Below, piece after piece: positions 29,082 to 54,808 of a stretch of 64,000 nt of DNA. This DNA comes from Halobacteriales archaeon QH_7_66_36. GTDB taxonomy: Archaea; Halobacteriota; Halobacteria; Halobacteriales; Haloarculaceae. The translations under genes were made by a program, and so were the position numbers. Location of the stretch: positions 182,170 to 246,169 of the forward strand of contig PXQV01000015.1 of assembly GCA_003021175.1 (NCBI GenBank). The letters run 5' to 3'. The notes under the pieces were generated by a model that was not told the origin of the DNA, made no database searches, and was given only the letters and a program-made list of their open reading frames with translations. How positions within the stretch are numbered: the first letter of the stretch is position 1; each line of letters opens with the position of its first letter.

Positions 29082-30017
29082 ATGTCCGCGTTCGAGGAGA
29101 TGGAAGGCGACGGCGTCATCTGGCAGAACGGCGAGTTCGTCGACTGGGAGGACGCGACGACCCACGTGCTCACCCACGGACTCCACTACGGCTCGGGTAT
29201 CTTCGAGGGCGTGCGCGCATACGACACCGAGCAGGGGACGGCTATCTTCCGCTGGGACGAACACCTCGACCGGTTCTACCAGAGCGGCAAGCCGTACGAC
29301 ATGGAGATCGGCTACGACCGCGAGGAGCTGACGGAGGCGGCGGTGGAGGTGCTCAACCGCAACGACCTCGACTCCGCGTACATCCGGCCCATCGCCTTCT
29401 ACGGCTACAACAGCCTCGGCGTCTCGCCGAAGGACTGTCCCGTCGACGTGGCCGTCGCGGCGTGGCCGTGGGGCACCTATCTCGGCGAGGACGCGCTCGA
29501 AAACGGCATCGACGTGATGATCTCCTCGTGGCGCAAACACGCCTCCAGTCAGATCCCGACGAACGCGAAGACGACCGGTCTCTACGTCAACAGCCTGCTG
29601 GCCGGCGAGGAGGCCCGCCGCAACGGCTACGCGGAGGCCATCGTCCTCAACAAGGAGGGCAACGTCGCGGAGGGCCCCGGCGAGAATCTCTTCCTCGTGC
29701 GCGACGGCGAGCTATTCACCCCCGGCCTCAGCGAGTCCATCCTCGACGGCATCACCCGCGACACCGTCATCACGCTCGCCGAGGAGCGCGGCTACACGGT
29801 CCACGACAACGTCTCCGTCTCGCGTGGCGAGCTGAACACCGCCGACGAGCTGTTCTTCACCGGCTCTGCCGCCGAGGTCACGCCGATCCGCAAGGTGGAC
29901 AACGTCGTCATCGGCGAGGGGACCCGCGGCCCTGTCACCGAGGAACTCCAGCAGGCGTTCTTCGACCTCGTGGAGCGGCGCACCGACGACCACGACGACT
30001 GGTTCGACTACGTTTAA
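29082..30017 (+). CDS. ilvE: Branched-chain amino acid aminotransferase
   Basis: 311 residues, fold-type IV PLP enzyme catalysing the last step of Leu/Ile/Val synthesis. Typical features: HGLHYGSGIFEGVRAYDT near residue 30, the PLP lysine in NAKTTGLY (about residue 165) and the phosphate-binding EGPGENLFLVRDG, then SGSAAEV-like FFTGSAAEVTPI. Own promoter (TATA-like element at 29050). The stop codon is followed directly by the structured repeat at 30018-30163. Confidence 0.95.
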   Translation: MSAFEEMEGDGVIWQNGEFVDWEDATTHVLTHGLHYGSGIFEGVRAYDTEQGTAIFRWDEHLDRFYQSGKPYDMEIGYDREELTEAAVEVLNRNDLDSAYIRPIAFYGYNSLGVSPKDCPVDVAVAAWPWGTYLGEDALENGIDVMISSWRKHASSQIPTNAKTTGLYVNSLLAGEEARRNGYAEAIVLNKEGNVAEGPGENLFLVRDGELFTPGLSESILDGITRDTVITLAEERGYTVHDNVSVSRGELNTADELFFTGSAAEVTPIRKVDNVVIGEGTRGPVTEELQQAFFDLVERRTDDHDDWFDYV

Positions 30018-30163
30018 CCCACTTTTTGCACGGGCCGGCAAGGCCGGCCCGGCAAAAACTTGGGGAAAATATGCGGGCGTGCTCCTGCCGCCAGCCTCCC
30101 TCTGGTCGGCTGGCGTTAGTCCGCGCGCCCTACCGCTCGCTCACTCCGCTCGCTCGCGGTACG
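30018..30163 (+). ncRNA. Structured 3'-UTR-type element, copy 1 (after ilvE)
   Basis: Starts on the base after the ilvE stop. Conserved blocks shared with copy 2 (46048-46193, minus): CCCACTTTTTGCAC at 30018, GGCAAAAACTTGG at 30051 continuing to GAAAATATGCG, TGCTCCTGCCGC at 30080, GTTAGTCCGCG at 30115. Between them are hairpins specific to this copy: GGGCCGGC-AA-GCCGGCCC-like (30032-30050), CAGCC...GGCTGG, and TACCG...CGGTA (30131-30161). CTTTTTGC also pairs with GCAAAAAC around the first hairpin. Could act as transcript end, stabiliser or mobile sequence. Limits of the element are approximate. Confidence 0.6.
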
Positions 30164-46047: not shown

Positions 46048-46193
46048 CACGGCGCGGCTCTGCCGCGCCGTAGCGCCCGCGGACTAACGCGGCGCGCGGT
46101 TTGCGCCGCGGCAGGAGCAGGCGCGCATATTTTCCCCAAGTTTTTGCCCGACCGAGCGCGGCTTCGCCGCGCGAGGGAGGTGCAAAAAGTGGG
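46048..46193 (-). ncRNA. Structured 3'-UTR-type element, copy 2 (after thermosome)
   Basis: Begins two bases after the thermosome stop on the minus strand. Shares with copy 1 (30018-30163) the blocks CCCACTTTTTGCAC, GGCAAAAACTTGG running to GAAAATATGCG, TGCTCCTGCCGC and GTTAGTCCGCG. The intervening hairpins differ in sequence but keep pairing: CGCGGC-GAA-GCCGCG, GGCGC...GCGCC, and CACGGCGCGGC...GCCGCGCCGTG (46048-46071). A further hairpin (CGCGAGCGAAGCGAGCGCG, 46025-46043) follows. Same position and orientation relative to the upstream gene as copy 1. Confidence 0.6.
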
Positions 46194-46195
46194 TG

Positions 46196-47890
46196 TTACA
46201 TCGCCCCGCCCATGCCACCCATACCGCCCATGCCACCCATGCCGCCGCCCATACCGCCGGGGCCGCCGGGACCGCCGGGTGCGTCGTCGCCGTCGTCGTC
46301 GCCGGTCTTCCCGCCGACGAGGTCACCGGCCGCGATGACATCGTCGATGCGGAGGATCATGACGGCCGCTTCGGTGGCGCTTTCGACGGCCTGCGTCTTG
46401 ACGCGGAGCGGCTCGACGACGCCGTCCGTCTCCATGTCCACGACGCCGCCGGAGTAGGCGTCGAGACCGGCAGTGGACTCGTCGCCGGCGTGCTGCGAGC
46501 GGAGGTCGACCAGCGAGTCGATGGGGTCGAGACCGGCGTTCTCCGCGAGCGTGCGCGGGATGACGTCGATGGCGTCGGCGAAGGCCTCGACGGCGAGCTG
46601 CTCGCGGCCGCCGACGGAGTCGGCGTACTCGCGGAGACCGAGCGCGAGCTCCGTCTCGGGCGCGCCGCCGCCGGGCAGTACCTGTCCCTCTTCGAGTGTC
46701 GTGCGGACGACGCCGAGCGAGTCGTCGATGGCGCGCTCGACTTCGTCGACGACGTGTTCCGTGCCGCCGCGGAGGACGAGCGTGACGGACTTGGCCTCGT
46801 CGACCTCCTCGACGAAGATCTTGGTGTCGCCGCCGATTTCCTTCTCGGCGACGGAGCCGGCGAAGCCGAGGTCGGCGGCGGTGATGTCGTCGAGGTTGGA
46901 GACGATGCGAGCGCCCGTGGACCGCGAGAGCGCCTTCACGTCGGACTTCTTCGCGCGGCGGACGGCGAGGATGCCCTCCTGTGCGAGGTAATGCTGGGCC
47001 ATGTCGTCGATGCCCTTCTGACAGAAGACGACGTCGGCACCGGCGTCCTTCAGCTGGTCGACCATCTCGCGGAGCTGCTGTTCCTCCTGATCGAGGAACT
47101 GCTGGAGCTGGTCCGGGTCGGTGACGTTGACCTCGGTGTCGATCTCCGTCTCCTTCACCTCGATAGGGGTGTCGAGCAGCGCGATGTCGGCGTCCTCGGC
47201 GAAGTAGGGCATGTTCTCGTGGACGCGCTCTTTGCCCACGATGACGCCCTCGACGAGCTCGGAGTCGGCGACGGAGCCGCCGACGACCGTCTGGACGTTG
47301 ATGTTGTCCGTATCGACGCCCTCGTCGTCGGCGACGGCGCGGACGGCGTCGACGACGAGCTGTGCGAGCGTGTCCTTCGAGTTCTCGGCACCCTTGCCGG
47401 TCATGGCGGTGCCGGCGATCTGCTGGAGGGTCTCGGTGTCGTCGGCGTCGACCTCGATGGCGATGTCGTCGAGAATCTCCTTTGCCTTCGCGGCGGCCTG
47501 CCGGTATCCCTGCGCGAGGATGGTGGCGTGGATGTCCTGTTCGAGGAGGTCCTCGGCCTTGGCGAGGAGTTCGCCCGCGATGACGACGCTGGTGGTCGTG
47601 CCGTCGCCGACCTCGTCCTCCTGCGTCTCCGCGACCTCGACGACCATGTTGGCCGCGGGGTGCTCGATGTCCATCTCCTGCAGGATGGTGACGCCGTCGT
47701 TCGTGACGACGACGTTGCCCGAGTCGTCCACGAGCATCTTGTCCATCCCCTTCGGGCCGAGCGTCGTCCGGACGGACTCGGCGACGGCCTTGCCGGCCGT
47801 GATGTTCATCGACTGCGCGTCCTGTCCGGATGTCCGCTGGCTATCCTCCGAGAGTACGATAAGTGGTTGGTTACCCATTTGCTGAGCCAT
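46196..47890 (-). CDS. ths: Thermosome (group II chaperonin) subunit
   Basis: 564 residues from ATG 47890 ([13 protein letters not shown]); an upstream TTG at 47896 adds two residues. Folds proteins in an ATP-driven double ring without a separate lid protein. Family motifs: [15 protein letters not shown], the ATP site GDGTTS (about residue 95) and GGGAPE near residue 405. The C-terminus is a Gly/Met repeat ([13 protein letters not shown]), as in other haloarchaeal subunits. A TATA box is 27 bases before the start. The stop is followed by the structured element at 46048-46193. Confidence 0.96.
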
Positions 47891-47916
47891 AGTCAAATTA
47901 AGATTGTCGGTGCTTC

Positions 47917-52819: not shown

Positions 52820-54808
52820 CTACCCGCTTCGCTGCTCCTTCTTCCGCTCGGCGCGGTGTTCGCTGATGAGTTCGTCGACCATCGACTCCGTCTGCTCCTG
52901 TTCGCGCTCGGCGGCCCGCTCCGCCCAGTCGTCGACGACGGCCTCGACGGCGGCCTCCTCCGCGACCGCGAGTTCGTCGATCTCGCGGACGGTCACGTCC
53001 TCGCTTGGTCCGTACGGCACGCCGTACTCGTGGAGTATCTCGCGGGCCTGCTCCGACAGCGTCCCGTCCTTCAACACGACGCGTGGGTCGACGGCAGCGA
53101 GTCGCTCTGCCGACGAACGGCCTGCGCCCGAGGCGTCCCGCAGTAAGATTACGTCGTCCTCGGCGAGTCCGAACGCGTCGTCGGCCGCCTCGATGGCGTT
53201 CGTCGTGAACTGCTCGATGGGTTTCACGGGGACGAGGTCGGTCCCGTCGGCCACGTCGGCGAAGTTGGAGTGGTCGAGCTTCCAGAGCCGCTTCAGCTCG
53301 TCGAGCTTCGCCTCCACCGCCTCCGTGCGCTCCTGCTGGTCGGCGAGTTCCGTCTCCAGTCGCTCGTTCTCGCGTCGGAGCCGGGTCACCTCGCGGCGCT
53401 CGCGGGCCTCGCGGCGCTCCTCGCGGCGGGCCGCGGAGAGTTCCGCCTCGTACTCCTCGATTTCCGTCTCCTTCTCGGCGACGGTGTCCTGCAGGTCCGA
53501 GACGTGGGCCTCCAGTCGGTCGACCCGCTCCTGCAGGCGGTTTATCTCCTTCTCCTCGGCGGTGAGTTCGCGCGCCTGATGTTCGACGCCGTCCTCGTCG
53601 TCGCTCTCCTCGACGACCATCCGGTCGAGGACGGCTTCGACCGACTCCTCCTCCGCGAGGACGGTCGCCGTCACCTCGCCGCGGTCGAACTGCGGCGGCA
53701 CCTTCCGGGCGATGCGCTCGAACTGGTCGGCGTGGGCGTCGAAGGCGTACAGCGCCGCCGCCAGCGCGTCCCGCTCGTGGTCGTTGTCGCACGTCGCGTC
53801 GCGGGTCCGGTGTTTCTTGCCGTCGACCGGGAGGTCCGTCGCCGGCTCCCACCCCGCCGCGTCGAACGACCGGCGGAACTTCTCGACCGTTTCGGGCATC
53901 GGCTCCACGTCGGCGGCGACGAGCAGCGGTCGCCCCCGCTCGATTATCCACTCGATGACGGCAGCCGAGTCGTCCGTCCGCGTCGAGTACACGTCGAGCG
54001 GGGTGCCGTCGAGGTCGACCAGCGCGACCGCCGTCGTCGTCCCGGGGTCGATGCCGACGAGCACGTGGTCGCGGCGCTTCGCCAGCGGCGAGAAGTCGAT
54101 GCCGTCGCGCCGCTCCCGTTCGATCTCGACCCGCACGTCGCCGTTCCGCGACGTCGAGACTGGGATGTCGGACGGACGTGCCTCGACGGTGAACAGCGCC
54201 TGCGAGTAGCCGCCGTACTTCTCGGTGACCTCCCGTTCGAAGTCGAGGCCGGCGTCGTTCAGTTGGGCTTCCACCTCGCGGGCGCGCTTGCGGACGTTGC
54301 CGTGGATGCGGCGCGTGTAGCGGTCCTCGCTCCAGCCGCCCTTTCCCGTCGAGCGCCCCCGAGACACCTTCACGCGTGTCGTGTCGGCGAAGGCGGAGAC
54401 GACTTGGCCGACGTTCGCCGCGGCGAGACGTGCGGCCGCCTCTGCCTCCTTCATCGGCTTCTTGCCGTAGGGGACGCCGTGGCGCTTTGCCACCCGCGAG
54501 AGCGGTTCGGGCTGTTCGGCTCCCGTCACCTGCACGAGTCGCGTCCCGTCCGGCAGGTCGCGGAGGAGCGCGACGAGCGCGTCCGTGTCCTCGGCGAGTT
54601 CGTACACGTTGTCCGTGGCGACCACGTCCGGCTCCTCGCGGTCGATCAGTCGGCGAAGCTTCCGGTGAGAGACCACGTTTCGGTCGACGTGCTCCCCGTC
54701 GAACGCGACCACGGCGTAGGAGGGAGCGTCGCCGCGGACATCGCCGCTCTGCACGTCGACGCCGAAGACGATCGCGTCGAGCGCGGTCGTCCGGGTGCTC
54801 ACGGCCAC
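52820..54808 (-). CDS. DUF460 protein with RNase H-like fold and coiled coil
   Basis: 662 residues. The N-terminus VFGVDVQSGDVRGDAPSYAV and the later LVGIDPGTTTAVALVDLDG give two actin/RNase H-like beginnings of the DUF460 family. A long coiled coil (about 400-510) precedes a C-terminal domain. The family is broadly conserved in archaea; the function is not established, though nuclease-fold relationship suggests nucleic acid work. Monocistronic, divergent from the methyltransferase gene. Confidence 0.88.
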   Translation of the reverse strand: MAVSTRTTALDAIVFGVDVQSGDVRGDAPSYAVVAFDGEHVDRNVVSHRKLRRLIDREEPDVVATDNVYELAEDTDALVALLRDLPDGTRLVQVTGAEQPEPLSRVAKRHGVPYGKKPMKEAEAAARLAAANVGQVVSAFADTTRVKVSRGRSTGKGGWSEDRYTRRIHGNVRKRAREVEAQLNDAGLDFEREVTEKYGGYSQALFTVEARPSDIPVSTSRNGDVRVEIERERRDGIDFSPLAKRRDHVLVGIDPGTTTAVALVDLDGTPLDVYSTRTDDSAAVIEWIIERGRPLLVAADVEPMPETVEKFRRSFDAAGWEPATDLPVDGKKHRTRDATCDNDHERDALAAALYAFDAHADQFERIARKVPPQFDRGEVTATVLAEEESVEAVLDRMVVEESDDEDGVEHQARELTAEEKEINRLQERVDRLEAHVSDLQDTVAEKETEIEEYEAELSAARREERREARERREVTRLRRENERLETELADQQERTEAVEAKLDELKRLWKLDHSNFADVADGTDLVPVKPIEQFTTNAIEAADDAFGLAEDDVILLRDASGAGRSSAERLAAVDPRVVLKDGTLSEQAREILHEYGVPYGPSEDVTVREIDELAVAEEAAVEAVVDDWAERAAEREQEQTESMVDELISEHRAERKKEQRSG

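Follow-up and report, generated by a model that had tools for sequence, protein, structure and literature searches.

The window analysed here is a stretch of 64,000 nucleotides from Halobacteriales archaeon QH_7_66_36, and it holds two copies of a structured element that lie behind unrelated genes. Copy 1 (30018-30163, forward strand) follows ilvE, and copy 2 (46048-46193, reverse strand) follows a gene for a thermosome subunit. These coordinates, which came from a sequence-only reading, were correct when checked on the sequence, as was the claim that the element starts 0-2 bases past the stop codon (0 in copy 1 and 2 in copy 2) and runs in the same direction as its host gene. The common blocks CCCACTTTTTGCAC, GGCAAAAACTTGGGGAAAATATGCG, TGCTCCTGCCGC and GCGTTAGTCCGCG/CTAC occur in identical order in both copies; the sequence between the blocks is unlike, and its folding is retained. 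The segments between the blocks, described as perfect hairpins, are so in their variable parts; P2 has a conserved imperfect internal loop. The start of the originally drawn extents also stands, whereas the conserved unit stops earlier, at CTAC (~30133 in copy 1 and 46070 in copy 2), with a variable P3 beyond it (Table 1).

Table 1. Positions of the host genes and of the parts of the two copies in the window.
Feature	Position	Strand	Basis
ilvE, branched-chain-amino-acid transaminase, host of copy 1	29082..30017, stop TAA 30015-30017	+	ORF list; NCBIfam TIGR01122 / NF005146
Copy 1 P1 hairpin: CCCAC-TTTTT (30023-30027)-GC-A-variable perfect stem-GGC-AAAAA (30054-30058)-CTTGGGG	30018..30065	+	sequence, folding, covariance model, covariation
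Copy 1 linker AAAATATG, A-rich, unpaired	30066..30073	+	sequence, folding
Copy 1 P2 hairpin, conserved internal loop CTCCTGC / TTAGTCC, REP-like as reverse complement	30074..30130	+	sequence, folding, covariation
Copy 1 CTAC (other strand GTAG), end of conserved unit	30130..30133	+	covariance model; CTAC in family copies
Copy 1 P3, variable hairpin; stand-alone haloarchaeal palindrome, not element-specific	30132..30161	+	sequence, folding
Thermosome subunit gene, host of copy 2	46196..47896, stop TAA 46196-46198	-	ORF list; NCBIfam NF041082 thermosome_alpha
Copy 2 P1 hairpin, T5 at 46184-46188	46134..46193	-	sequence, folding, covariance model
Copy 2 linker AAAATATG	46126..46133	-	sequence, folding
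Copy 2 P2 hairpin, internal loop as copy 1, stem different	46073..46125	-	sequence, folding, covariation
Copy 2 CTAC	46070..46073	-	sequence, covariance model
Copy 2 P3, variable hairpin	46049..46071	-	sequence, folding

The minimum free energy of folding was -81.1 kcal/mol for copy 1 and -89.5 kcal/mol for copy 2 (z of -6.8 and -5.5 against dinucleotide shuffles), and both copies also formed structure when folded as single-stranded DNA. A covariance model derived from 11 trimmed copies scored each of them at ~95 bits (E ~1e-21) and found no further strong copy in the window. The conserved cassette is ~115 bases long, within a total of 115-150 nt, and its parts follow the order P1 (CCCACTTTTTGC-hairpin-GGCAAAAACTTGGGG), linker AAAATATG, P2 with CTAC, and variable P3. 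The P1 consensus consists of CCCAC TTTTT GC, then a stem that varies and is usually perfect, and GC AAAAA C(T/G)TGGGG, and the linker is AAAAA in other genera. P2 has a variable stem of ~8 bp, an internal loop with CTCC(T/A)GC opposite TTAGTCC, a second variable stem and the terminal CTAC, which is present in 101 of 126 copies from the family of the window's genome. Read as the reverse complement, P2 and CTAC become GTAG plus an imperfect hairpin, an arrangement that is REP-like, and the TAA/GCA internal loop of P2 in copy 1 presumably resembles that of the E. coli REP. The final ~30 nt of copy 1 form a hairpin that is found independently of the element in many haloarchaea. P1 without P2, or P2 without P1, was almost never found, and a combination of independent REPs with an unrelated P1 was rejected on this ground.

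In genus g44, which belongs to another family and is probably Halobacterium, P1 is conserved and P2 is replaced by a different hairpin; GTAG was absent from the Halobacterium-like copies among the further loci examined. A second subfamily, likewise at gene ends, has P1 and a P2 core with a linker of the form ...CATCAAAAAGACACG / GATGAAAAAGACAC (L179, L180, L121:1125-1217, L137:1201-1293, L108:1228-1318 and the orthologue, in the congener G005, of the L002 gene). A KaiC/RadA-like gene is followed by this second subfamily in G005 and by the main form in the window's genome. At L295 (G057:C51), the element was found tandemly duplicated together with a tRNA 3'-end repeat.

The copies are not a product of chance, as the 2.6-Mb genome has 14 instances of a 23-nt block of the element and none of the reversed pattern. 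The window's genome (G000) carries ~14-16 copies, with 16 matches to the covariance model; Halorarius genomes carry 11-14 and Natronomonas at least 27, and copy number is lineage-specific (2 vs. 14 vs. at least 27 per genome), all such numbers being lower bounds. Carriers make up 65 of the 146 genomes and 14 of the 22 genera in the family of the window's genome. A gapped P1 pattern applied across the order matched 51 of 392 genomes from 13 genera and several families, while the reversed control matched none, and the Halobacteria as a whole hold hundreds of copies. The hairpins may be hard to assemble, so that copies in MAGs may be under-counted; in the public assembly of the congener G001, the orthologue of L013 has a short N run inside P3, downstream of P2. 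No element match was found in viral contigs or plasmids, and spread on either was thus rejected. A cmscan of the window with Rfam gave no family match at the site of either copy, and a known riboswitch or ncRNA was rejected on this basis and on the position of the element, which is always downstream of genes. Elsewhere in the window, a sub-threshold Guanidine-II match at 53623-53678 on the forward strand (25.6 bits against a gathering threshold of 32, E 0.5) is probably due to chance. The literature searched on haloarchaeal REP, MITE and 3'-UTR repeats and on bidirectional terminators yielded no description of the element.

We checked whether the copies lie at random with respect to genes and strands, and their positions were far from random: they are on the sense strand, usually 0-4 nt past a stop codon or tRNA end, and always in the same orientation. 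With gene calls based on ORFs and a same-strand ORF of at least 80 codons as the criterion, 103 of the 126 distinct family copies start -3 to +9 nt from a stop (104 of 127 matches, at about -3 to +9 nt, before duplicate removal), compared with 4% of random points; the copies are mutually related, so these are not counts of independent events. Among the further loci, mostly from other genera or families, 37 of 51 were within -1 to +5 nt of a stop, and in the window's own genome 13 of 14 copies follow a stop codon and the remaining one follows a copy of a tRNA end. Directly upstream lie core genes with no relation to one another (pdxS, nuoI, aspartate kinase, sucD, topoisomerase VI A, orc1 and tatC are examples). 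Some hosts recur; an NDH-type oxidoreductase precedes the element in 7 genomes, for instance, and the thermosome in 16, which belong to two families. When most of the non-adjacent exceptions were read singly, several proved to sit after a tRNA end. In other families, intact tRNA genes lie directly upstream (tRNA-Val at L299, with 1 nt of overlap, and tRNA-Phe at L301, 3 nt away), and other tRNA-associated copies follow a duplicated tRNA 3' end. Thus, the element needs a gene end rather than a stop codon. The downstream neighbour is convergent in 77 cases and co-directional in 45; the co-directional gaps have a median of 256 nt and are shorter than 40 nt in just 3 of 37.

The 103 adjacent stop codons comprise 52 TAA, 43 TAG and 8 TGA. 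TGA is therefore rarer beside the element than in a crude background (8/103 vs. 51/126), for which a leaky UGA before a structure and the history of insertion are both candidate causes. Sequence-specific insertion at TAA or TA is an insufficient explanation of the placement since the element also follows TAG, TGA and tRNA ends, though TGA is depleted. A further observation concerns tRNA-Ala, -Val and -Phe genes (L014, L166, L295, L223, L302), whose own 3' end is directly repeated ~100-130 nt further on. The insert between gene and repeat is small and non-coding, shares the words ATTTGAA...CAGTCGCAGCCCGCGCAG...GAGCAGGAACGTCTGAC, and looks like a tiny integrated element that targets tRNA genes. 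The same words interrupt P1 at L040.

The sequence-only reading had treated covarying helices as the mark of an RNA element. Covariation was strong across 108 distinct copies: 90.7% of the cells were paired, and double changes were seen in 30 of 33 pairs (421 cells vs. 120 in shuffles). Thus, neither outcome set out in the original note as refuting, a lack of covariation or random placement, came about. If the sense RNA were the working form, G-U should be better tolerated than A-C, and this expectation served as a test of the strand. Outside two fixed wobble columns, there were 34 G-U and 42 A-C; in the P1-distal stems, there were 20 and 21, respectively, and G-U made up 0.6% of the pairs. 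The step from covariation to RNA is therefore unsupported: G-U is no commoner than A-C, which gives the sense RNA no advantage over the opposite strand. Both fixed wobble columns, which lie in P2 (U-G in 54 and G-U in 62 sequences), are compatible with a hairpin of RNA or of single-stranded DNA alike. The swapping of entire hairpin modules between copies at different genes is the main source of the covariation, and the palindrome is most likely maintained at the DNA level. Two other options in the original note, a terminator and a palindromic repeat favouring gene ends, are both nearer to the evidence and are not mutually exclusive.

These data bear directly on the possibility that the cassette forms the end of the mRNA as a structured 3'-UTR RNA, which would protect the message or would offer, in the P2 loop and the A-rich linker, a site for a protein that binds or cleaves it. 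The exclusively sense orientation at gene ends, the conserved anchors and the covarying helices recall the structured 3'-UTR families of Rfam. The conserved internal loop CTCC/AGTC with its two wobble columns also fits such an RNA, and the total length of 115-150 nt is near the Haloferax 3' UTR median of 97 nt (PMC7237163). However, the element has neither an Rfam match in the window nor an excess of G-U over A-C, its modules are swapped whole rather than mutated pair by pair, and it also stands behind tRNA genes, whose transcripts are trimmed to the mature 3' end. We consider this reading somewhat unlikely.

Thirteen gene ends of the window's genome were compared with those of three congeners (G001, G004 and G005). 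In G001, where the DNA is mostly 93-98% identical, 10 of the 11 sites that could be compared carry the element, ilvE being the sole exception. In G004 and G005 (~82-94% identity), most sites were empty and the ends of the reading frames were unchanged; the absence of the element from almost all of the same genes indicates that it is dispensable. Between G000 and G001, modules matched a paralogous copy at 94-98% and the orthologous copy at 54-75%. For example, the lrpA1 P2 of G000 is 98% like the P2 of another G000 gene and 68% like that of its own orthologue, and the pdxS module is 95-97% identical to a paralogous copy vs. 54% to the orthologue. Because conserved sites carry differing, paralogue-like modules, the location has been kept while the content has been exchanged between loci, and the pattern of identities suggests that the exchange was most likely ectopic and resembled gene conversion.

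Near-identical P2 modules at different genes, together with the lineage-specific copy number, would also be expected of a non-autonomous mobile palindromic repeat that spreads, with gene ends as sites where its copies are tolerated or favoured. REPs have GTAG next to a short palindrome, usually with more than 100 copies per genome and units of 20-40 bp (PMC3733652, PMC2817692), and most of them are situated behind coding regions (PMC3733652). The element resembles GTAG-type REPs in P2: like REPs and BIMEs, it is a many-copy non-coding palindrome with shared modules, GTAG at one end (in 101 of 126 family copies) beside an imperfect hairpin, and a location downstream of coding regions. It differs in being a P1-P2 composite of ~115 nt, whose halves almost never separate, with 14-30 copies rather than more than 100, in the GTAG that Halobacterium-like copies lack, and in having no linked RAYT; on copy number and linked transposase, it is not a member of the REPs. 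Mobilisation by a RAYT/Y1 enzyme was unsupported, since Y1_Tnp was absent in the carriers G157, G032 and G070 and the surroundings of 18 Y1 genes gave a single weak match of 20 bits. In addition, spread of this kind accords poorly with a single orientation and a spacing of 0-4 nt in the absence of a shared target sequence (TAA, TAG, TGA and tRNA ends), with the retention at 10 of 11 orthologous sites in G001, and with the lack of copies on viral contigs and plasmids. We regard a REP-like mobile repeat as unlikely.

That palindromes stand where transcription units end, many with convergent neighbours, also raises the idea of a BIME-like site of DNA topology, where hairpin-rich repeats past transcribed genes would take up positive supercoils and serve as binding sites for gyrase or another protein. 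The idea of REP/BIME as topological insulators has been put forward, in a work among the references of PMC3733652, and the symmetry at the DNA level, with both window copies folding as single-stranded DNA, would suit it. However, such a site requires neither the 0-4 nt spacing nor a fixed orientation, and a topological role, suggested by analogy with REP/BIME, seems very improbable.

The explanation that we favour, with a probability of about one half, is that the element is a repetitive DNA-level cassette at 3' boundaries, a putative T-tract terminator of unit ends that is homogenised by ectopic exchange. The cassette would sit directly after the last codon or the tRNA 3' end, in the sense direction, and close the transcription unit. 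On the sense strand, the P1 T5 would end the host gene's transcript just beyond the stop codon; the opposite strand has a T4 and a T5 in close succession (CATATTTTCCCCAAGTTTTTGCC), which would halt antisense transcription arriving from downstream. We infer both the termination, by the archaeal T-tract route, and its action in both directions; the element is probably bidirectional. Hairpin modules would be copied between loci by ectopic exchange, with the position and the anchor sequences held by selection.

In 102 of the 103 adjacent copies, the T tract begins 3-14 nt past the stop (T5 at 4-10 nt). Around these gene ends, the sense strand has no other common T4 tract than the P1 T5; T4 tracts immediately downstream of the element are rare, and within the window just a few other genes have one in the first 80 nt past the stop. 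T stretches are a confirmed motif of intergenic termination in Haloferax, with 95% termination in a reporter (PMC7237163). The element resembles these archaeal terminators in P1, with a sense-strand T5 near the end of the unit, and differs in that the T5 lies within a conserved repeated structure and its terminator activity is putative. A terminator of the bacterial intrinsic type, a G+C-rich hairpin followed by a U run, was absent at copies 1 and 2, where the T5 is on the 5' side of P1; the archaeal route does not need that arrangement. The terminator reading fits the adjacency to protein and tRNA genes, the orientation and the layout of neighbours. However, it implies a 3' UTR of ~10-15 nt, far below the Haloferax median of 58-97 nt (PMC7237163), and if P1 is bidirectional, convergent pairs in which each gene has its own copy (e.g., L144, L126 and L150) would be redundant. 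The T tract also leaves the conserved P2 loop, the GTAG-like end, the A-rich linker and the very short spacing to the stop unaccounted for. A bolder reading is a dedicated copying process that would recognise the functional end of a gene rather than a DNA target, place the cassette exactly there and keep refreshing every copy's hairpins through exchange, which would make the element a mobile, concertedly evolving 3'-end system; we hold this to be quite improbable.

The element carries a caution for RNA discovery, as the exchange of whole palindromes has here produced strong covariation with no RNA-strand signature, and a covariation pipeline alone would probably label it a new RNA family. The ending of transcription and the definition of 3' ends in archaea are still being worked out. 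The putative terminator cassette offers dozens of matched sites per genome in carriers that include cultivable genera (Natronomonas, Halorarius, and Haloarcula-like and Halobacterium-like genomes), and related genomes in which the same genes stand without the element are natural controls.
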